Below, piece after piece: positions 30,834 to 51,628 of a stretch of DNA of 64,000 nt. Position numbers and translations under genes: made by a program. Each line of letters starts with the position of its first letter. Within the stretch, counting starts at the first letter, position 1. Below the pieces are notes generated by a model. It was not told where the DNA came from and ran no database searches. It saw only the letters and a program-made list of their open reading frames with translations. Source of the stretch: Candidatus Caenarcanales bacterium (lineage in GTDB: Bacteria > Cyanobacteriota > Vampirovibrionia > 2-02-FULL-35-15); the NCBI GenBank assembly GCA_020050435.1, contig JAGVKQ010000007.1:62001-126000 (forward strand), given 5' to 3'.

Positions 30834-30884
30834 ACACCTCATGCATACATAATTAAGAAAGAAATTTATAGTATTATTTTTATG

Positions 30885-30958
30885 ATTATTATTTGGGGAA
30901 GAAGGGTGAAAATCCTACGCTGACCCGCAACTGTAAAGCCAGAATGCCAAATAATAAT
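30885..30958 (+). ncRNA. Cobalamin (B12) riboswitch aptamer, compact class-II-like
   Basis: A perfect 12-base closing stem P1 is formed by 30885-30896 and 30947-30958 (arms ATTATTATTTGG and CCAAATAATAAT). Inside lie the conserved core pieces in the expected order: GGGGAAG, GGGTGAAAATCC, GACCCGCAACTGTAA and the B12-box GCCAGAATGCC. These match the cobalamin riboswitch consensus. At 74 bases it is compact, without the large peripheral P3-P6 extensions, as in class II riboswitches. Lies between hemY and the repeat-protein gene at 31048. Confidence 0.88.
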
Positions 30959-30968
30959 TTTTCTAAAA

Positions 30969-31048
30969 CTCTTGCGAGGCTCAAGAGGGTAAGTAAAATT
31001 TTAATTTTTCTTTCCCCTCTTTTTGTTAACAATTAGAGGGATTTTTTT
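30969..31048 (+). promoter_or_regulatory. Riboswitch expression platform with competing hairpins
   Basis: CTCTTG (30969-30974) can pair with CAAGAG (30982-30987). CCCTCT (31015-31020) can pair with AGAGGG (31035-31040), which is also the Shine-Dalgarno of the gene at 31048; a second inner stem TTG/CAA (with TTAA loop) lies within it. An identical AGAGGG at 30984-30989 can pair with the same CCCTCT. The downstream hairpin is followed by eight T, so it looks like both an intrinsic terminator and a ribosome-site sequestor. The two alternatives are mutually exclusive. Confidence 0.65.
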
Positions 31049-32754
31049 TGAAGTTATCTTTTCAAAATGCACTTTCATTTTACTTAACCGGAAGGTTGGA
31101 GCATAAATCTTCCAGTGAAAAAGCCAATCTTGATTATACAAATCAAGAGCTTGATGATTTTGAAATGAATAGAAAAGAGTTTGAGAATTATGAAAATGAA
31201 TGTGTAACTTATAAAAATCCTCTTTTAAATGATAGAGCTGATTTAAATACTTTAGATGGTCAATTTAGATTAGGTGGACTTGGTGTCGTTAATTCTTTAT
31301 TTTCAGGAATTGGGGTAAAGCTAGCCAGTAAATTAAGTTTTGCTTCCGGTTTACTTGCAGCAGCAGGCTCTCTGGGATTTTCTTTCATAAAAAACAATGG
31401 AATCTTAGATTCGAAACATTCACTTTTTAGTGTAGGTGGAAATCTTATTAGAGGACCACTTCATATGTTGGATTCGGTCTTTTCTAGTGTTGGTGAACAG
31501 GGTTCAAAATTTACTTTACCTAGCATTTTAGCTGGTGGAGTAAGTGTTTTTAGTCTTGGTAGAACATTGAAAGGAACTGATAATAAATCTTTCGAACTTC
31601 CAAACAACACTATTTCAGGGACATTAGGTAGAACAGCAGTTCATCATATGGATTCTATGTTAGCTAGTAAGGGTACTGAGATATTTTCAAATAGTCAGGG
31701 GCTAGGTTCTTTTCTGGCTTCATCACTTACGACTTTTGGACTTTTAATGCCAGAAAATCTTAGAAAAAAGGAAATACCATGGAAAACATTGGAGGGTTTT
31801 GTAGCTCAAGGAGGAACACATTTTGTAGACTCTTTATTTTCAAGTTTAGGAAATGGACTTACTTCATCTTTTGGTGATGGTAAAAAAATGCTCTTAGGAG
31901 GAGCAGGACTTGCAGCTTCTATTCCTTTAGCTAGTAGTTTACTTTCTAACCTAAGCTATAAAATCCCATTTGGTACTTTTGAAGGAAGAATAGTAAGAGG
32001 AATATTTCATGCTCCTGAAAGTCTTGTATTTAATTTAGGTAGTATGGTTGGATCAGGTGGTTTAGGCTTGCCTTTAACAATGGGTTTTGCTGGTCTGACT
32101 TATCTTACTTGTGTATCTAAAAAAGGAAAAAATCTCTTCAAGAACTTTTCTATTTCTAGGGATAGTTTAAGTGGGCTTGTTCAAAGACTTCCATTTGACT
32201 TTATTTATTCAATGATTTCTTCTTCAGCAAGAAAAATAGGCGCTCTTGTTCCAGCACCCGTTCTTACATTGATAGGACCAGCTCTTTCATTTCAGATTGG
32301 TGAGAAGTTGAAAAATGTAGAAACTAAGTTTGATGATTTAAAAGGTTTAATGCTTAGAAACTCTGTGCACTTGTGGGAAAGTGTTTTATCTCAGTCAGCA
32401 TATAGAACAGGAAGAATGGTAACAGGTACTTTGGATGAAGATATCTCCAGCGGTTCTCTTCTTTCTGATGGCAGATGGCTTTCTGATGATGGAAGAATTG
32501 TTTCTACTATGGCGATCGGTAAGCAGCTTAAAGAACATTCAGAAATCAATTTTAAAAATCTTCTCCTAACCACTTTAGGTGGAATAGGATTTGCTTTTGC
32601 TTCTAGTAAAGTCTTTAAACATGTAATAGGTCAGGAATCACAAAAAACAAATGTACCCGATGTGAAACCACCAGAAGAGCAGAAAATATCTTTGGCATCA
32701 CTGCCAAGAGAAAATATTTTATTAGAACGAAATTTTTTATTAGAGGCAGGGTAA
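31048..32754 (+). CDS. Riboswitch-controlled protein of seven ~60-residue repeats, family unknown
   Basis: 568 residues from a TTG start with AGAGGG seven bases upstream. No signal peptide. After a charged N-terminal 70 residues come seven repeats with anchors near residues 82, 142, 202, 261, 324, 387 and 444. The anchors include PLHMLDSVFSSVG, AVHHMDSMLASKG, THFVDSLFSSLG, FHAPESLVFNLG and SVHLWESVLSQSA. Each repeat ends in a Gly/Ser/Leu-rich amphipathic stretch, so membrane or oligomer contacts are plausible. A hydrophilic C-terminus (about 530-568) follows. It is not a known B12 transporter, synthesis enzyme or B12-independent isozyme that I recognise. Confidence 0.7.
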   Translation: MKLSFQNALSFYLTGRLEHKSSSEKANLDYTNQELDDFEMNRKEFENYENECVTYKNPLLNDRADLNTLDGQFRLGGLGVVNSLFSGIGVKLASKLSFASGLLAAAGSLGFSFIKNNGILDSKHSLFSVGGNLIRGPLHMLDSVFSSVGEQGSKFTLPSILAGGVSVFSLGRTLKGTDNKSFELPNNTISGTLGRTAVHHMDSMLASKGTEIFSNSQGLGSFLASSLTTFGLLMPENLRKKEIPWKTLEGFVAQGGTHFVDSLFSSLGNGLTSSFGDGKKMLLGGAGLAASIPLASSLLSNLSYKIPFGTFEGRIVRGIFHAPESLVFNLGSMVGSGGLGLPLTMGFAGLTYLTCVSKKGKNLFKNFSISRDSLSGLVQRLPFDFIYSMISSSARKIGALVPAPVLTLIGPALSFQIGEKLKNVETKFDDLKGLMLRNSVHLWESVLSQSAYRTGRMVTGTLDEDISSGSLLSDGRWLSDDGRIVSTMAIGKQLKEHSEINFKNLLLTTLGGIGFAFASSKVFKHVIGQESQKTNVPDVKPPEEQKISLASLPRENILLERNFLLEAG

Positions 32755-32796: not shown

Positions 32797-33531
32797 ATGG
32801 CAATTCAATTAACGAAAATTCCAATGGCAGTATATAAACCAATTACGGTTAATCAAACTCGTACTCGCACTTATAGTGGAAATGTTGTTGCTTTTGATAG
32901 ATCGAGAGAATCTGCGTCGAAGGTAGCATTTAAAGCCACGCTTGATAAAGCTCAAATAAGTCAAAAGTTTTGGGATGATCTATTAGAGAAACTTAGAAAA
33001 GCTGGAGGCGGTGGCGGAGGTGGAAGTTTCGACAGAATTAAAGTAAGCATGCAGCTTATGGATTTTATAAGCAATAAAATGATTAGAGCCTTATTAGAAA
33101 ATATGAAGATGGGCATCCCTCTTCCAGAAAACATTTCTCAAAATCAAGTAAAAAATCAAAATCCTGTTTCTGTATTTCTTCAGGTTGTGACTAATAATCT
33201 CATGAAAATGGTTACCTTATTTGCGTCGGGTAAAGACTTGCCGCTGGCAAGCCTTTACAATCGCCTAACCCAAAATCTTACGAAAGGCGTTGAAAGTCTT
33301 TTTATTGCATTTTCACTCCAGATGAATAAATTGAAAGAAACCTTGAAGAAAGCAAATATAAAGGCGAAATTAAAAGCCGCGATTAATCGCGGCTTTACAG
33401 TTTTGTTTGATTTCTTTGTAGAAATGAAAGAAGAGGTAAAAAATATAATTTACTTTGTAAAGAATTTCTTAAATTTAGAGGTTTCAGATTTTGCGAATAA
33501 TGATGCTAAAATATACGTTGTAAAGAGGTAA
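32797..33531 (+). CDS. Hypothetical protein with poly-glycine hinge and two embedded palindromes
   Basis: 244 residues, no signal peptide. Residues 1-68 form a basic/polar domain, then seven glycines (69-75) and a mostly helical C-terminal region. Residues about 145-154 (GKDLPLASLY) and 193-200 (AAINRGFT) are encoded by palindromes 33230-33258 and 33373-33396. AAAGGA gives a good Shine-Dalgarno. Probably cotranscribed with the riboswitch-controlled gene 42 bases upstream, and lemA follows after six bases. Function unknown. Confidence 0.6.
   Translation: MAIQLTKIPMAVYKPITVNQTRTRTYSGNVVAFDRSRESASKVAFKATLDKAQISQKFWDDLLEKLRKAGGGGGGGSFDRIKVSMQLMDFISNKMIRALLENMKMGIPLPENISQNQVKNQNPVSVFLQVVTNNLMKMVTLFASGKDLPLASLYNRLTQNLTKGVESLFIAFSLQMNKLKETLKKANIKAKLKAAINRGFTVLFDFFVEMKEEVKNIIYFVKNFLNLEVSDFANNDAKIYVVKR
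33230..33258. repeat. Intragenic palindrome (first copy in the gene at 32797)
   Basis: Arms GTAAAG-A-CTTGCC and GGCAAG-C-CTTTAC around a GCT loop, all in frame. GC-rich against AT-rich surroundings. Confidence 0.75.
33373..33396. repeat. Intragenic perfect 24-base palindrome (second copy in the gene at 32797)
   Basis: Arms AAAGCCGCGATT and AATCGCGGCTTT with no loop. In frame, encoding part of a helix-rich region. Confidence 0.8.
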
Positions 33532-44097: not shown

Positions 44098-47000
44098 ATG
44101 GTAATAAGCATGCAATCAGGGTATCAAAATCAAGTAAATGAGAAAAATAGACTTGCAAACAAAGCCGTCCTTCCAAAGGACCAGGCTAGAGCTATTTTGG
44201 AGACTGATTTTGGTTCAAACTTTCCTGAAAATGTACATGATGTTGTCAAGAAACTTTATTCAAGAAGAAATGAAAAAGGCGAGTTAATTGAAAGCCTAAC
44301 TCAGGTATGGAAGAGAGTTGCTCTTTCCGTAGCCGTAGCTCAGTTAAAGTATGTCCTTAAACCACATGAACTCATTCAGTTAACCATTGATAAGGCTCTT
44401 GATAATGAATATGTTCTTTCTGCTGCTGCTAAATACTACAAAGCTATGGGTGAAAGAAAAATGTTTGCAAATACACCTGCAAATATAAATGCAAGGGAAG
44501 ATTTCTCACTTTATGTTTTACAGTATGAAGCTCATGGTGAAATCCTTGGTTGGAGCACACATAAAATCTGGATGTCTGAAAATGAATTGAGACAAAAATA
44601 TGAAAAAGCTCATAAAGTTGAAAAAGAAAAAGTTAGAAAGTGGATTTCTGACTTAAAAGGAACAAGCCAAAGTAACTCTTATGGTGGTCAACAACAAAAA
44701 CTTTTCTATCCTAATGTAATTGAAACCTTAAAGCATGAATTAGCTATGGGATATTATGCCACTCGCATTAAAAGAAGAGGTGGTTTAGCTGCATGTGGAG
44801 TTACAAATGCAGGAGACAGTCTGGAAGAAATTGAAAAAGCAGCAGCAGAAATAATGGATGCTACTAAAGGCTCAATGGGAATGGGAATAAATACCAGTTC
44901 TCTTCGCCCATGGCAAACACCAAACAGTGATGGAAGTACAGCTTCAGGTCCAGATCGTTTTGTAGAAAAACTTTTTTGTCCTGCTGGTCAGTCTATTGCT
45001 CAGGGTGGAAGACGTGGTGGTGCATTTATAGAACTTAGAGATAGTGATCATCCAGATATCACACTTTTTATTGATAAAAAGCAATTACCAAAACAACCTA
45101 GCTTTCCTGAAATTTATTCAAAAATTAATTCGACTACAAAACCTGTAGAAGAATCGCATTATCAGGATAAAAAAGAGTTTGAAATTGCGCAAAAACAAAG
45201 AGAATTGACAGTCATGCAAAAATCTCTTGAGAAGTTTAGCAAAGCATCTTTTGAATATTACTCAAAACAACAATATTTAAAAAACTACAATGTTTCTGTG
45301 AGAGCTGTTCGTGGCTTTATGAAAAATGTAGAAAACAAAGAGTGGTATCCAGCAACTTTTGAGGATTCTTATTGGAAAGGAAGTCTCTACGACTTTACAA
45401 AACCAGTTTTAGATTCTAAAGGAAATCAGAAATTAAATCCTTTAAATAAAGAGCCACTTTATGAACTTTATTCTATAGACCTTGAAGAATTTCCAGATGC
45501 AGAAGAAATAGCTAAAAATCAAGGTTTAGTTATTCTAAAATCAGATGATGGGAAACTGCTCCAGGTTAAAAAAGATGGCGCTTACTGTTTTTATGCACCA
45601 GATATATTTAAAAGAATAGCTATTGGCATGGTAAATGGTGGTGAACCAGGCATTCAGTTTGCAGATTTAGTAGAAGCAGCAAATGCAAATAAGCATATAT
45701 ATGAACTTCACACTTGTAATCCATGTGGCGAACAAAATCTGCCAGCTCAAATAGGCAAAGATGGGATTGAATATAGAGGAATTTGTAATTTAACTACAAT
45801 TCATTGTGCACATCCAGACTTTTTTGATGAGAATGGAATGTATCAGTTTGAAAGAATGGAAGAGATTGCAGATCTTTCCACAGAATTTATGGATGACGTA
45901 ACTACCGTAACTCATTTCCCTATACCTGCTCAGAATTCTACAGCTCGTCGTGAAAGAAGAAATGGTGGTGGTTTTGCAGGAGTTGCAGAATTGATAGCCA
46001 GATATGAAGTTGAGTTTGGTTCAGATGAGTCTAATAAACTTGTTTCAGAACTTTATGATCATTTTGCTAAAGCTTGTATCAGAGCTAGTGAAAGACTTGC
46101 TCATGAAAGAGGAGTTTATGAAATCTGGTCAGGTAGTACATTTTCAGAAAAAGGTTTAAGAGTAAGAAACTCTTGCATGGTAAACCAACAACCTACAGGT
46201 ACTATGGCACAGCTTTGTGGCACTTCTTGGGGACCAGAACCATTTAATGGAATTGTTTTCTCTAGAAAAGTTAGAGATAATTGGGTAAGTTTTACAGCTC
46301 CAGGCTTTGAAGAAGCTATGAAAAAAGCAAATGCATGGCCTTCTACAGAAGAAGAAATTAAAGCACTTTTGGATAAAATTAGAAAAAATGGAAAGAAAGT
46401 TACAGGACTTTCTGAAATTCCAGAACAAGTTCAAAAAATCTTCAAGATAAATACTGAAATTGATCCATATGACTATATTAATCATCTTGCAGCTATTCAG
46501 AAAGCAAATGCTGGTTTCCCAGAATGCTTTAATGCTCTCTCAAATACATGCATGATTAAAGGTGATATGTCTTATGAATATGCTGGTGAAGCTGCAATGC
46601 TTGGTTATAAATTAGGTGTTAAATCTATTACCTTCTATCCAGATGGTACAAGACTTAGTCAGCCAGTAGAAGCACAAGATAAAAAGCTTGAAGAGCTTTC
46701 AATGCTTGAAAAATTCTTGCCAATATTTAAAACTAGCGTATCAATTACAGAAAATGATAATGAGGGAAGTTCTGCAATTCCTTCAGAGACTAAAGAGATC
46801 CAAGTTCAAAAAGTAATCATTGAACAAACTTTAAAACCAAGAACAAGACCAAAAAGAATGTTTGGTTTTAATGAAGAAGTTATGACACCAGAGGGTCCAC
46901 TTCATGTTCATGTTTATTTTGATGAAAGGGGGCCAAGACAAGTTTTTGCTCATTTAATGAGAGGTGGCGGAGTTGCTTCTGGAATGATTGAAGCTATTTG

Positions 47001-47457
47001 CCGAATGGCTACTAAAGCTCTCAAATGGGGCTGCTCTCCTGAAGATGTTGCTAAAGGCCTTGTAAATATTCAAGGGGGACAAAAGATAGTTGGAATTGAA
47101 GCAAATTCAATTCCTGATGCAATTGGACGAGTGTTAAGGGATGCATGTAAAGGACAATACCAAATGTCACTTTTTGCGGAAGCGCCAGAAGTAAAAGATG
47201 ATGTTGATACTGTTCAGACGACTTTTCAAAAGAAGCATGAGATCAAGTTCGATGAATCTATTATCAATGAAGATAGTAGTGAGATGAAAATGCAGATGTT
47301 AGATGAAGCAGTAAAAGCCAGGATGGATTGGATAGCACAAGGACATGAGACACAATGCCCATGTTGTCATTCAGAATTTATATCTGAGTCATTTGGTAAT
47401 GCTGCATGTAAAGTAGGACCAGTTTGTTTAAGTTGTGGATGGAGTCATTGCGGATGA
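44098..47457 (+). CDS. nrdJ: Ribonucleoside-diphosphate reductase, class II (B12-dependent)
   Basis: 1119 residues. Uses adenosylcobalamin to make the thiyl radical, independent of oxygen. RGGLAACGVTNAGD carries the first active-site Cys; NTSSLRPWQTPNSDG and FCPAGQSIAQGGRRGGAFIEL (in parts) are class II markers; HTCNPCGEQNLPA and RGICNLTTIH contain the radical Cys region. MFGFNEEVMTPEGPLHV and the C-terminal CPCC...CLSCGW pairs form the re-reducing/zinc tail. No N-terminal ATP-cone is present. Within the tail, CHSEFISES (residues 1090-1098) looks repeat-derived. AGAGG ten bases before the ATG. Confidence 0.95.
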   Translation: MVISMQSGYQNQVNEKNRLANKAVLPKDQARAILETDFGSNFPENVHDVVKKLYSRRNEKGELIESLTQVWKRVALSVAVAQLKYVLKPHELIQLTIDKALDNEYVLSAAAKYYKAMGERKMFANTPANINAREDFSLYVLQYEAHGEILGWSTHKIWMSENELRQKYEKAHKVEKEKVRKWISDLKGTSQSNSYGGQQQKLFYPNVIETLKHELAMGYYATRIKRRGGLAACGVTNAGDSLEEIEKAAAEIMDATKGSMGMGINTSSLRPWQTPNSDGSTASGPDRFVEKLFCPAGQSIAQGGRRGGAFIELRDSDHPDITLFIDKKQLPKQPSFPEIYSKINSTTKPVEESHYQDKKEFEIAQKQRELTVMQKSLEKFSKASFEYYSKQQYLKNYNVSVRAVRGFMKNVENKEWYPATFEDSYWKGSLYDFTKPVLDSKGNQKLNPLNKEPLYELYSIDLEEFPDAEEIAKNQGLVILKSDDGKLLQVKKDGAYCFYAPDIFKRIAIGMVNGGEPGIQFADLVEAANANKHIYELHTCNPCGEQNLPAQIGKDGIEYRGICNLTTIHCAHPDFFDENGMYQFERMEEIADLSTEFMDDVTTVTHFPIPAQNSTARRERRNGGGFAGVAELIARYEVEFGSDESNKLVSELYDHFAKACIRASERLAHERGVYEIWSGSTFSEKGLRVRNSCMVNQQPTGTMAQLCGTSWGPEPFNGIVFSRKVRDNWVSFTAPGFEEAMKKANAWPSTEEEIKALLDKIRKNGKKVTGLSEIPEQVQKIFKINTEIDPYDYINHLAAIQKANAGFPECFNALSNTCMIKGDMSYEYAGEAAMLGYKLGVKSITFYPDGTRLSQPVEAQDKKLEELSMLEKFLPIFKTSVSITENDNEGSSAIPSETKEIQVQKVIIEQTLKPRTRPKRMFGFNEEVMTPEGPLHVHVYFDERGPRQVFAHLMRGGGVASGMIEAICRMATKALKWGCSPEDVAKGLVNIQGGQKIVGIEANSIPDAIGRVLRDACKGQYQMSLFAEAPEVKDDVDTVQTTFQKKHEIKFDESIINEDSSEMKMQMLDEAVKARMDWIAQGHETQCPCCHSEFISESFGNAACKVGPVCLSCGWSHCG

Positions 47458-47571
47458 TTTTGTCAAGAATAATTACGTCTTGATTACATAAAAAAATGTT
47501 TCTGCAAAATTTGAATTTTTCAAAGATAAGAGTAAAATTAGAACAATCAAAAAATCGAGGGAGAAAATAAA

Positions 47572-48618
47572 GTGGCAATAGCAACACCTAATTCAAGTAA
47601 AAATTTAAATTCAATTGAACAAATTCCAAATAATGTAATTGATATAAATGAAGAACCAATTTTAAGATCAAACAAAGATAGATTTGTTTTATTCCCTATT
47701 AAATATGATGAAATTTGGCAAATGTATAAAAATGCAGAAGCCAGTTTTTGGACTGCTGAAGAAATTGATTTATCCCCAGATTTAAAAGATTGGGAAAAGT
47801 TAAATGACAATGAAAAATATTTTATAAGTCATGTTCTTGCATTTTTTGCAGCAAGTGATGGAATTGTAAATGAAAATCTTGCAGTGAATTTCATGAGAGA
47901 AGTTCAACTTCCAGAAGCAAGAGCATTTTATGGTTTTCAAATAATGGTTGAAAATATTCATGCTGAAACATATTCACTTCTTATTGACACATATATAAAA
48001 GACCCAGCAGAAAAACAAAGGCTTTTTAATGCAATGGAAACAATTCCTTGTGTTAAGAAAAAGGCAGATTGGGCATTTGAATGGATTGATAGTGATAATT
48101 TTGCAGAAAGATTGGTTGCTTTTGCAGCAGTAGAAGGTATTTTCTTCTCAGGAAGTTTTTGTTCTATTTTCTGGTTGAAAAAACGTGGTTTAATGCCAGG
48201 ACTCAGTTTTTCTAATGAGCTAATCTCAAGAGATGAAGGATTACACTGTGACTTTGCTTGTTTATTGTATAAAATGCTTAGACATAAATTAAGTAAAGAA
48301 AAAATTTACGAGATAATTGGTGATGCTGTAAAAATTGAAAAAGAGTTCGTGACCAGTGCATTACCAGTTGACTTGATAGGTATGAACTCAAAATTGATGA
48401 CTAAATATATTGAGTTTGTTGCTGATAGGTTGCTTGTAGAATTAGGATATCCTAAATTATTCAATGCAACGAATCCATTTGATTTCATGGAGTTAATTTC
48501 TCTTCAGGGAAAAACAAACTTCTTTGAAAAAAGAGTTGGAGAATATCAAAAAGCTGGTGTGATGAATAGTTGTAAAACAAAAGCAGCATATTCATTTACC
48601 TTAAATGCAGACTTCTAG
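47572..48618 (+). CDS. nrdB: Ribonucleoside-diphosphate reductase class Ia, small subunit
   Basis: 348 residues. Diiron/tyrosyl-radical subunit: [13 protein letters not shown] (first Asp ligand), [18 protein letters not shown] with Glu, His and the radical Tyr, [25 protein letters not shown] (in part), and [12 protein letters not shown] with Glu/His. The Tyr is kept, so this is class Ia rather than the Mn/Fe Ic form. The sequence is unusually like the eukaryotic R2 type ([19 protein letters not shown]-terminal FTLNADF). GAGGGAG is the ribosome site, start GTG. 114 bases after nrdJ; no NrdR box seen in that gap. Confidence 0.96.
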
Positions 48619-48692
48619 GTCGGGCATTTTAAAGCTGATGTTTTTGAGAAGTTAGGGGATCTTTTTCTTAAAAAGTAATAAAGGAAATATCT

Positions 48693-51080
48693 ATGTTCGT
48701 TTTAAAAAGAGATAATAGACGTGAAGCCGTCAAATTCGATAAAGTAACTGCAAGAATTGAAAAGCTTTGCTATTCATTGGACCCAAACCACGTGAATGCT
48801 GTTGAAGTTGCAAAGAAAGTTATTTTAGGAATTTATGATGGTGTTACTACTTCTGAATTAGATAGTTTAGCTGCTGAAACGGCAGCATCACTTACTGCAA
48901 AACACCCTGACTATGCACGTTTGGCATCTAGAATAGCTATTTCTAACTTGCATAAAAATACTAAGAAATCTTTTTCAGCTACGATGACTGATTTGTATAA
49001 TTATATAGATTCAAAAACAGGTAAAAAAGCACCCTTAATTTCTGAAGATGTTTTTCAGGTCATATTAAAACATTCTGAGCTTTTAGATTCCACTATTATT
49101 TATGATAGAGATTTTGGCTATGACTATTTTGGATTTAAGACACTTGAAAAATCTTATCTCTTAAAAATTGATGGACAAGTAGTAGAACGTCCTCAGCATA
49201 TGCTTATGCGTGTAGCAGTTGGTATGCATAAGGATGATATTGAATCTGCTATTGAAACTTATAATCTTATGTCAGAGCGTTGGTTTACACATGCTACGCC
49301 TACATTATTTAATGCAGGTACTCCAAAACCTCAGCTTTCATCATGCTTTTTATTGACAGTAAAAGACGACAGTATAGAAGGCATTTACGATACATTGAAA
49401 CAATGTGCAAAAATCTCACAATCAGCAGGTGGAATTGGGCTTAGTATTACTGACATTAGAGCGACTGGATCATATATCAGAGGTACGAACGGTACTTCAA
49501 ACGGTATTATTCCTATGTTGAAAGTTTATAACGATACTGCTCGCTATGTAGATCAAGGTGGTGGTAAGAGAAAAGGTTCATTTGCTATTTATATTGAGCC
49601 ATGGCATGCTGACATTTTTGAATTTTTAGAACTTAAGAAAAACCATGGAAAAGAAGAACTTAGAGCACGTGATCTTTTCTATGCTCTTTGGGTTTCAGAT
49701 CTTTTCATGAGACGTGTAGAAGAAAATGGAAATTGGTCACTTTTCTGTCCAAATGAAGCACCTGGTTTAAGTACTAGTTGGGGTGAAGAGTTTGAAAAGC
49801 TCTATGAAAAATATGAAAATGAAGGTAAAGCTAGAAAGACAGTAAAAGCACAGGAATTATGGTTTGCAATTCTTGAGTCACAGATTGAAACTGGTACTCC
49901 ATACATGCTCTACAAAGATGCATGTAATAAAAAATCCAACCAACAAAATCTTGGCACTATTAAAAGCTCAAATCTCTGTACTGAAATAGTAGAATACACT
50001 GCACCTGATGAAGTGGCTGTATGTAATTTGGCTTCTATTGCACTTCCTAGGTTTGTTATAGATGGAAAGTTTGATCATGAAAAACTCTATGAAGTAACAA
50101 AAGTAGTAACTAAAAATTTAAATAAAATTATTGATGTTAACTATTATCCTGTAGAGGAAGCAAAACGTTCAAACATGAGACATCGACCTATAGGAATAGG
50201 TATTCAAGGACTTGCCGATGCATTTATTCTTCTTAGAATGCCATTTGATAGTGATGAAGCTACACAATTAAATAAAGAAATCTTTGAAACACTTTACTTT
50301 GCGGCGATGACAGCATCAATGGAATTAGCTAAAGAACAAGGTCCATATGAGACATATGAAGGATCACCTGTATCAAAAGGTATCTTCCAATATGACATGT
50401 GGGATGTTACACCATCTACTAGATGGAATTGGGAAGAATTAAAAGAAAAAGTAAAAGAACATGGTGTAAGAAATTCTCTTTTACTTGCTCCAATGCCTAC
50501 AGCGTCTACATCTCAAATCTTGGGAAATAATGAATGTTTTGAGCCCTATACATCAAACATTTACACAAGGCGTGTTTTATCAGGGGAATTTATTGTAGTA
50601 AATAAATATCTTTTGAAAGATCTTGTAAGTCTTGGGCTTTGGTCACCGGAATTAAAGAATAAGATTATTAAAAATAATGGATCAATTCAAAACATCCCTG
50701 AAATCCCACAGCCTATAAAAGATCTCTATAAAACAGTTTGGGAAATTAAGCAAAGAACGGTTATAGATATGGCAGCAGATCGCGGTGCATATATCTGTCA
50801 GTCACAGTCATTAAATCTTTTCTTACAGGATGTAGACTTTGCAAAACTTACTTCAATGCACTTCTACACTTGGAATAAGGGCTTAAAGACAGGAATGTAT
50901 TATCTCCGTACGAAGTCAGCTGTTGATGCTATTAAATTTACTGTAGAAACTCAGGCTGAAGTGCCTCTTGAGCCAGTTGTTGAAATGGAAGAATTAAAAG
51001 CCATTGATAAAGAAAAAGAAATGGCGGCAGTGGCATGTTCATTGGAGAACAAAGAAGACTGCGTAATGTGTAGTGGGTAG
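48693..51080 (+). CDS. nrdA: Ribonucleoside-diphosphate reductase class Ia, large subunit
   Basis: 795 residues. Residues 1-90 are an ATP-cone ([25 protein letters not shown]) that gives dATP feedback. The catalytic barrel has [49 protein letters not shown] (in parts), [12 protein letters not shown] and [10 protein letters not shown]. The C-terminus ends CVMCSG, the mobile Cys pair. Like NrdB it resembles the eukaryotic type. Needs oxygen for its partner's radical, complementing NrdJ. Order B-A is unusual. AAAGGAA precedes the ATG. Confidence 0.96.
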
Positions 51081-51082
51081 GA

Positions 51083-51628
51083 TTAATTAAATCTGTTCCT
51101 ATCAAATTCCCATTTAATTGGATTGTTAATAATATATTCCCTGGTTCTATTTAATTCATTTTCATTACGAATAATCCGTTCATAAAAACGCGGTTGCCAG
51201 GTGAATTGTCGGAAATTGGATTTATTGCATTCACGTTTTACCGCCGATTTATATTGATTAACAATCATGGATAATGATCCAGATATTGGTTTTGAAAAGC
51301 GGTTGTATTTTGCCCGTAGAGACATGCCTAGGCATGTCTCTACAAACGGCGGTATCATATCGATAATAAAAATTATATGCACATGATTTGGCATTATTAC
51401 CCATTCGTCCAATAAAACGTTATTGCGTAACATTGGGATTTTCAATAATTCATTTTTTGTAATTCCCCCAATTTCCGACAATTCCATTTTTCCATTTATA
51501 ATTTCCCCCAAATAATTTATCCGATTTTTTGTACATATGGTTACAAAATATGCACCATTTGATGAATAATCCCAATGTTCTAATCTTATTGATTTAATTC
51601 TATATTTATTTTTGAACAATTCATACAT
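51083..51628 (-). CDS. REP-associated tyrosine transposase (RAYT, IS200/IS605-like)
   Basis: 181 residues. YFVTICTKNR is the usual start of the fold; VIMPNHVHIIFII carries the HUH metal-binding motif (His 82 and 84); NQYKSAVKREC holds the catalytic Tyr (about 126); WQPRFYERIIRNENELNRTREYIINNPIKW (in two parts) is the C-terminal RAYT signature. These enzymes process palindromic REP DNA. Residues 96-105 (VETCLGMSLR) are encoded by a 28-base perfect palindrome of the GAGAC family, between the HUH motif and catalytic Tyr. Convergent with nrdA (two bases apart). Confidence 0.93.
   Translation of the reverse strand: MYELFKNKYRIKSIRLEHWDYSSNGAYFVTICTKNRINYLGEIINGKMELSEIGGITKNELLKIPMLRNNVLLDEWVIMPNHVHIIFIIDMIPPFVETCLGMSLRAKYNRFSKPISGSLSMIVNQYKSAVKRECNKSNFRQFTWQPRFYERIIRNENELNRTREYIINNPIKWEFDRNRFN
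51316..51343. repeat. Perfect 28-base palindrome inside the RAYT gene
   Basis: Arms GTAGAGACATGCCT and AGGCATGTCTCTAC, no loop, in frame. The GTAGAGAC...GTCTCTAC ends are the same as those of the other family members in the window and of abundant cyanobacterial repeats. Confidence 0.9.

Follow-up and report, generated by a model that had tools for sequence, protein, structure and literature searches.

What does a vitamin B12 riboswitch control when the gene behind it encodes no recognisable B12 protein? This question is raised by a locus of Candidatus Caenarcanales bacterium (assembly GCA_020050435.1; 96.6% complete, 2.49 Mb), which we analysed within a stretch of 64,000 nucleotides, hereafter the window (contig JAGVKQ010000007.1, positions 62,001-126,000 of the forward strand). 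A cobalamin aptamer is followed here by the gene for a 568-residue, seven-repeat protein, which we call W1, and directly downstream by the gene for a 244-residue protein, W2. It has been reported that 86% of bacteria use B12 and 37% make it (PMC6461909); because most bacteria use the vitamin and many cannot make it, B12 importers are central to community ecology.

On its covariance-model match, the riboswitch is of a known class, AdoCbl-II (class II cobalamin; Rfam RF01689). The aptamer occupies positions 30877-30957 on the plus strand and aligns to the full model (positions 1-81 of 81) with 48.8 bits (E about 9e-9) at a gathering score of 36.5. It is the single above-threshold match in an Rfam scan of the whole window and the only AdoCbl-II match found in the genome. 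The initial annotation, made from the letters alone, had described a clear B12 aptamer with a 12-base P1 and had proposed a covariance-model scan; both the scan and the P1 letters, 30885-30896 (ATTATTATTTGG) pairing with 30947-30958 (CCAAATAATAAT), bear this description out. The aptamer is preceded by a conserved promoter-like element, TATAGTATTAT (window 30846-30884; also L045, L046, L049, L051 and L052). Six relatives carry a short hairpin with compensating changes between this element and the aptamer (CCAAC/GTTGG, CCAGC/GCTGG, CTGAC/GTCAG), which is absent from the window.

Downstream of the aptamer, the leader contains the parts expected of a regulatory platform. A P13 hairpin (CTCTTG-CGAGGCT-CAAGAG) lies at 30969-30987 on the plus strand, and its loop L13 (CGAGG) is complementary to the aptamer loop L5 (CCCG) with one bulged A. 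By analogy with known cobalamin riboswitches (PMC10653944), the two loops probably form a kissing interaction, for which a bulge has precedents in env8HyCbl and the A. halodurans cobT switch (PMC10653944). L5 (GACCCGCAAC) and L13 (TTGCGAGGCTC) are invariant in all nine aligned leaders of the window's family. In three of these nine, the 3' arm of P13 is itself the ribosome-binding region, and P13 begins 24-34 nt before the start codon. The window and five other leaders have a second hairpin instead, which buries the ribosome-binding sequence and whose T-run stops at the TTG codon or next to it; in the window, this hairpin (31014-31041, plus strand; CCCTCT/AGAGGG, seen in the sequence and in ViennaRNA folds) covers the ribosome-binding AGAGGG at 31035-31040, and the T-run after it extends into the W1 start codon. 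It is a candidate sequestor, terminator or both. Every family member whose W1 gene has an intact 5' end starts it with TTG, which in most of them lies close to or at the point where the leader T-run stops (L003-L011).

Three strands compete in the window: the AGAGGG of P13 (30984-30989), the CCCTCT at 31015-31020, which forms the 5' arm of the second hairpin and can alternatively pair with P13, and the ribosome-binding AGAGGG. When B12 is plentiful, the aptamer would bind it and the kissing loop would keep P13 closed; the ribosome-binding site would then be buried, either in P13 itself or in the second hairpin against the TTG start, and W1-W2 would be off. Under B12 scarcity, the 5' arm of the second hairpin could be captured by the 3' arm of P13, and expression would rise. 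Forcing P13 in ViennaRNA folds keeps the ribosome-binding site paired in all leaders with a second hairpin, including that of the window. Since the alternative ON fold is seen in only some of the computed ViennaRNA minima, we infer the polarity from the architecture, which looks like that of a repressing platform (OFF with B12). This logic matches a repressing corrinoid riboswitch dissected previously, and an activating one exists as well (PMC10653944). With its full-length aptamer, L5-L13 pair, P13 and a platform of the ribosome-binding-site or terminator type, the element resembles other AdoCbl-II riboswitches; it differs from them in that the controlled gene encodes no known transporter, synthesis enzyme or isozyme.

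Switch and gene belong together. A profile search of 194 genomes of the class recovered W1 in every one of the 11 window-family genomes and in two genomes of another family. When 84,980 species were scanned by pattern and tblastn, the only relatives came from Candidatus Melainabacteria genomes, several of which carry groundwater names, and from one uncultured-bacterium bin. It had been suggested that the 5' regions of homologs be inspected for B12 switches: an AdoCbl-II aptamer precedes W1 in each of the 12 loci that have upstream DNA, at 35-195 nt from the gene in the 11 loci measured; several of these aptamers score slightly under the Rfam threshold yet align over the full model. In window-family loci that extend beyond W1, the next same-strand gene is W2. 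In most relatives, the first long gene beyond W2 has the opposite orientation, and W1-W2 is therefore the minimal unit. The two homologs from outside the window's family lack both W2 and the C-terminal hydrophobic helix of W1.

The W1 gene (31048-32754, plus strand) is an open reading frame with a TTG start, 90 nt after the aptamer. A frame of 568 residues with seven units at a period near 60 had been claimed for it, and the frame is present; when the profile of the homologs is compared with itself, some 16 pairs of 32-residue windows outscore every one of 50 shuffles (maximum 18.9), the best pair reaching 36.8. The units are anchored at residues 82, 139, 199, 258, 321, 384 and 441 (offsets of 57-63), and identity over 12 homologs is 33-58%. 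The proposed H-x-x-[DE]-S-hydrophobic core holds for five of the seven units of the window's W1 and fails in unit 1 (N-x-x-F-S) and unit 6 (D-x-x-Y-S); the motif histidine is thus kept in five units and the serine in all seven. More fully, the motif reads T-[LIVF]-x-G-x3-R-x3-H-x2-[DE]-S and is followed by a short, mildly hydrophobic helix. W1 further contains a hydrophobic helix at 502-527 and a conserved C-terminal motif, G-x4-DGRW-x3-DGRIV-x2-MA-x-GKQ. We considered the five histidines of H-x-x-[DE]-S as strict cobalt ligands and rejected this idea: two units lack the residue, and only H199 and H441 are invariant over the 12 homologs, with H139 nearly so.

The structure prediction proposed in the initial annotation gave an AlphaFold2 model (12 sequences; mean pLDDT 80.5, pTM 0.80) of seven strand-helix-helix units, each with a tight turn bearing short strand contacts and a long helix, and six of them with a short helix as well. 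The long helices present a conserved polar face, with R, H, D/E and S at positions -4, 0, +3 and +4 (conservation moment p about 0.014). Such a face would be compatible with a ligand site or a lined cavity, and also with helix packing. The helices are mildly hydrophobic (Kyte-Doolittle means of about 0 to 1.4), the sequence shows neither an obvious signal peptide nor a recognised signal for secretion or surface location, and a polytopic membrane importer is not evident. As had been stated, the gene corresponds to no known B12 protein: W1 has no family match in Pfam, NCBIfam or PHROGs, and neither W1 nor W2 matches the Pfam or NCBIfam domains of FecCD permeases, ATPases, binding proteins or TonB receptors. 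A Foldseek comparison of the model with the PDB and with viral models returned nothing at E <= 1e-3, and nothing significant among ARM/HEAT repeats, alpha/alpha toroids, MFS or MATE proteins (best NarK, E 1.7e-3, TM 0.15). A lone weak similarity to a diterpene cyclase in a profile search of PDB sequences (E 0.045) was judged to be chance, and no viral relatives of W1-W2 were found. W1 is a new protein family without a known fold so far.

W2 is a helical protein encoded by the second gene of the unit (32797-33531, plus strand), an open reading frame 42 nt behind W1. It carries a conserved oligo-glycine stretch and an FDR-x2-VSM motif; its AlphaFold2 model (pLDDT 47.5) is too weak for use. Matches to the gas-vesicle protein GvpN (E 0.004) and to SpoIIM (E 0.05) lie far below the cut-offs and were discarded. 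Within the W2 gene, a perfect 10-bp palindrome, AAAGCCGCGATTAATCGCGGCTTT, occupies 33373-33396, near the point where the W2 of the window diverges from its relatives.

What might such a unit do for its host? Family-by-family searches of genomes, on which our inventory of B12 genes rests, place the window's family among organisms that need B12. The B12-dependent methionine synthase of the window's genome is unmistakable (MetH, 1363 bits at an NCBIfam cut-off of 1011), and the genomes of the family encode MetH and/or a divergent NrdJ, plus an adenosyltransferase. B12-binding domains and class II-like ribonucleotide reductases were each found in eight of eight family genomes tested; G002 and G003 showed no MetH-sized B12-binding frames. 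All 11 family genomes carry a CobA-type adenosyltransferase, the window's copy scoring below the NCBIfam cut-offs. The window itself holds a candidate B12 consumer, a divergent class II ribonucleotide reductase of the B12-dependent type (44098-47457, plus strand), whose best NCBIfam matches are vitamin B12-dependent models, below their cut-offs; it has no riboswitch of its own, and its counterpart sits 4-6 kb behind W1-W2 in five relatives.

Markers of synthesis and of the main known import routes are missing from the same genomes. CbiC (corrin-ring synthesis), the FecCD/BtuC permease and the TonB-receptor plug were found in none of the 11 family genomes, and CbiQ/EcfT (the ECF T component) and ABC_membrane_2 (the domain of the Rv1819c-type ABC B12 importer) in none of 17 genomes that include these 11. 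Ten of the family genomes are at least 86% complete and one is 79% complete, and the same searches recovered all five markers in control genomes. The tested types are the main known ones, with BtuM and unknown types outside this set, and the family genomes may hold an importer of such an unlisted type.

Given that the organism is a B12 auxotroph, that no importer is recognised and that its single B12 switch controls W1-W2, this unit is the prime candidate for acquisition. We therefore tentatively favour, at close to an even chance, the reading that W1-W2 is a B12-repressed two-gene unit by which B12 auxotrophs obtain or retain the vitamin. The case is an argument by elimination. It gains from G057, a genome of the same class, in which a TonB receptor and a BtuC-type permease are also switch-controlled. 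It loses from the fact that the riboswitch is the only direct tie of W1 and W2 to B12, and importers need not be riboswitch-controlled. In such a unit, the polar helix face of W1 (R, H, D/E and S over seven units) might bind the corrinoid or form its path at the inner membrane, and W2 might be an accessory helical subunit; these two assignments are the least certain parts of the scheme. The initial annotation had inferred a B12-related role from riboswitch control, listing uptake, storage, transfer or replacement. The checks it had proposed came out in its favour wherever we ran them, and the B12 requirement, the missing CbiC and the missing import markers add to this support and favour acquisition from the list; the biochemical function and exact role are, as was said then, what we infer from this context.

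A comparison with BtuB-BtuCDF, a TonB receptor with an ABC transporter, illustrates the position of the new unit. Both are riboswitch-controlled in B12-dependent organisms, whereas W1-W2 has no FecCD, TonB-plug or ATPase feature and no sequence or fold similarity to the Btu proteins. A whole family of auxotrophs is without the tested known importers, and a conserved, switch-controlled W1 stands at the place where an importer would be expected. W1-W2 is a concrete candidate for B12 acquisition in uncultured groundwater Melainabacteria as well as for a new repeat fold, and B12 switches can flag functional gaps that homology searches overlook. Our search of the open-licence literature found no paper on a comparable B12 switch in Melainabacteria.

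B12 switches of this class repeatedly have undescribed targets. In a second family with small genomes, f5, an AdoCbl-II aptamer precedes a three-gene unit in more than 40 examined loci, and the unit is found in nearly all genomes sampled (for example L058:4382-7035). It encodes a CPHGLP-x-G-x-CPIC protein of ~230 residues followed by proteins of about 490 and about 155 residues, all undescribed; the second (L058:5073-6551) contains an internal duplication with an offset of 246 residues (score 61 vs a shuffled maximum of 28). The f5 unit resembles W1-W2 as an undescribed multigene unit directly behind an AdoCbl-II aptamer. It differs in its Cys-rich N-terminal motif and in its place beside btu-like genes in G057, and homology to W1-W2 was rejected (profile-profile hhalign, E 0.34 and 0.12). 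As G057 carries both the f5 unit and a btu-like locus, with the TonB receptor and BtuC-type permease behind an AdoCbl-II aptamer, a unit of the f5 type is not simply a substitute for Btu. W1-W2 could be a new class of corrinoid uptake machinery built on an unseen seven-repeat helical fold and serving B12-auxotrophic Melainabacteria that lack TonB, BtuCDF and ECF transporters, with the f5 unit as a second such invention, a more specific proposal that we consider somewhat unlikely.

The alternative that survives best keeps the tie to B12 and moves the site of action inside the cell: W1-W2 might handle B12 that has already entered by an unrecognised route, in storage, in delivery to adenosyltransferase, NrdJ or MetH, or in recycling under B12 scarcity. 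A W1 of mild hydrophobicity and without a signal peptide would fit such a role, as would the outside homologs that do without both W2 and the hydrophobic C-terminal helix, the class II-like reductase close to W1-W2 in several relatives, and the adenosyltransferase shared by all family genomes. This account leaves B12 entry unexplained in cells without the tested importer markers, and no similarity to known B12 chaperones is detected in Pfam or NCBIfam; we regard it as unlikely.

B12 might instead serve as a signal of the surroundings, and W1-W2 as a component of the cell surface, of adhesion or of cell contact, produced at low B12 without touching the vitamin, for example for reaching B12-producing neighbours. 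The ppe2 operon of Mycobacterium tuberculosis offers a parallel, in which a class II-type switch, OFF with B12, precedes a gene whose function is uncertain (PMC11260477), and unrelated, undescribed proteins behind the f5 aptamer are what one would expect of a lineage-specific output. The parallel is imperfect: PPE2 is a member of a large and known family of proteins, whereas W1 has none, and ppe2 is co-transcribed with cobQ, adjoins cob genes and has a suspected role in cobalt (PMC11260477). The missing secretion or surface signal in W1 and the B12-related nature of the known aptamer targets elsewhere in the class (ribonucleotide reductases, TonB receptor) also speak against the signal, which we consider rather improbable.

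A further alternative is that W1-W2 takes over a B12-dependent function under B12 shortage, in the way that MetE and NrdAB stand in for MetH and NrdJ; such stand-ins are the second classical kind of B12-switch target. In other families of this class, the AdoCbl-II aptamer does stand before ribonucleotide reductase genes of class I or class III. In W1 and W2, however, we see neither an enzyme-like domain nor a catalytic motif, nor any fold match, and the class I reductase of the window (nrdB then nrdA, 47572-51080, directly after the class II-like reductase) is outside switch control, which makes this explanation very improbable. One might also suppose that the switch serves the haem operon upstream, or is a relic, and controls W1 by chance, which is hardly credible: the hemE-hemN-hemH-hemY run does end, with the hemY stop codon, 43 nt before the aptamer, but the aptamer lies downstream of these genes in the same orientation, conservation of the leader and P13 reaches as far as the W1 start, and the aptamer-W1 pair is retained beside different upstream genes, without haem neighbours, in G003, G013 and G046, which contradicts the idea.

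The reductase region of the window (44098-51080) deserves a remark of its own. We looked for a B12 switch on nrdAB, as other families of the class have it, and the Rfam scan placed no aptamer there, so that the class I genes differ in this respect from those of the other families. Immediately beyond them, an open reading frame on the minus strand (51083-51628) has an N-terminal sequence that we take to resemble REP-associated tyrosine transposases.
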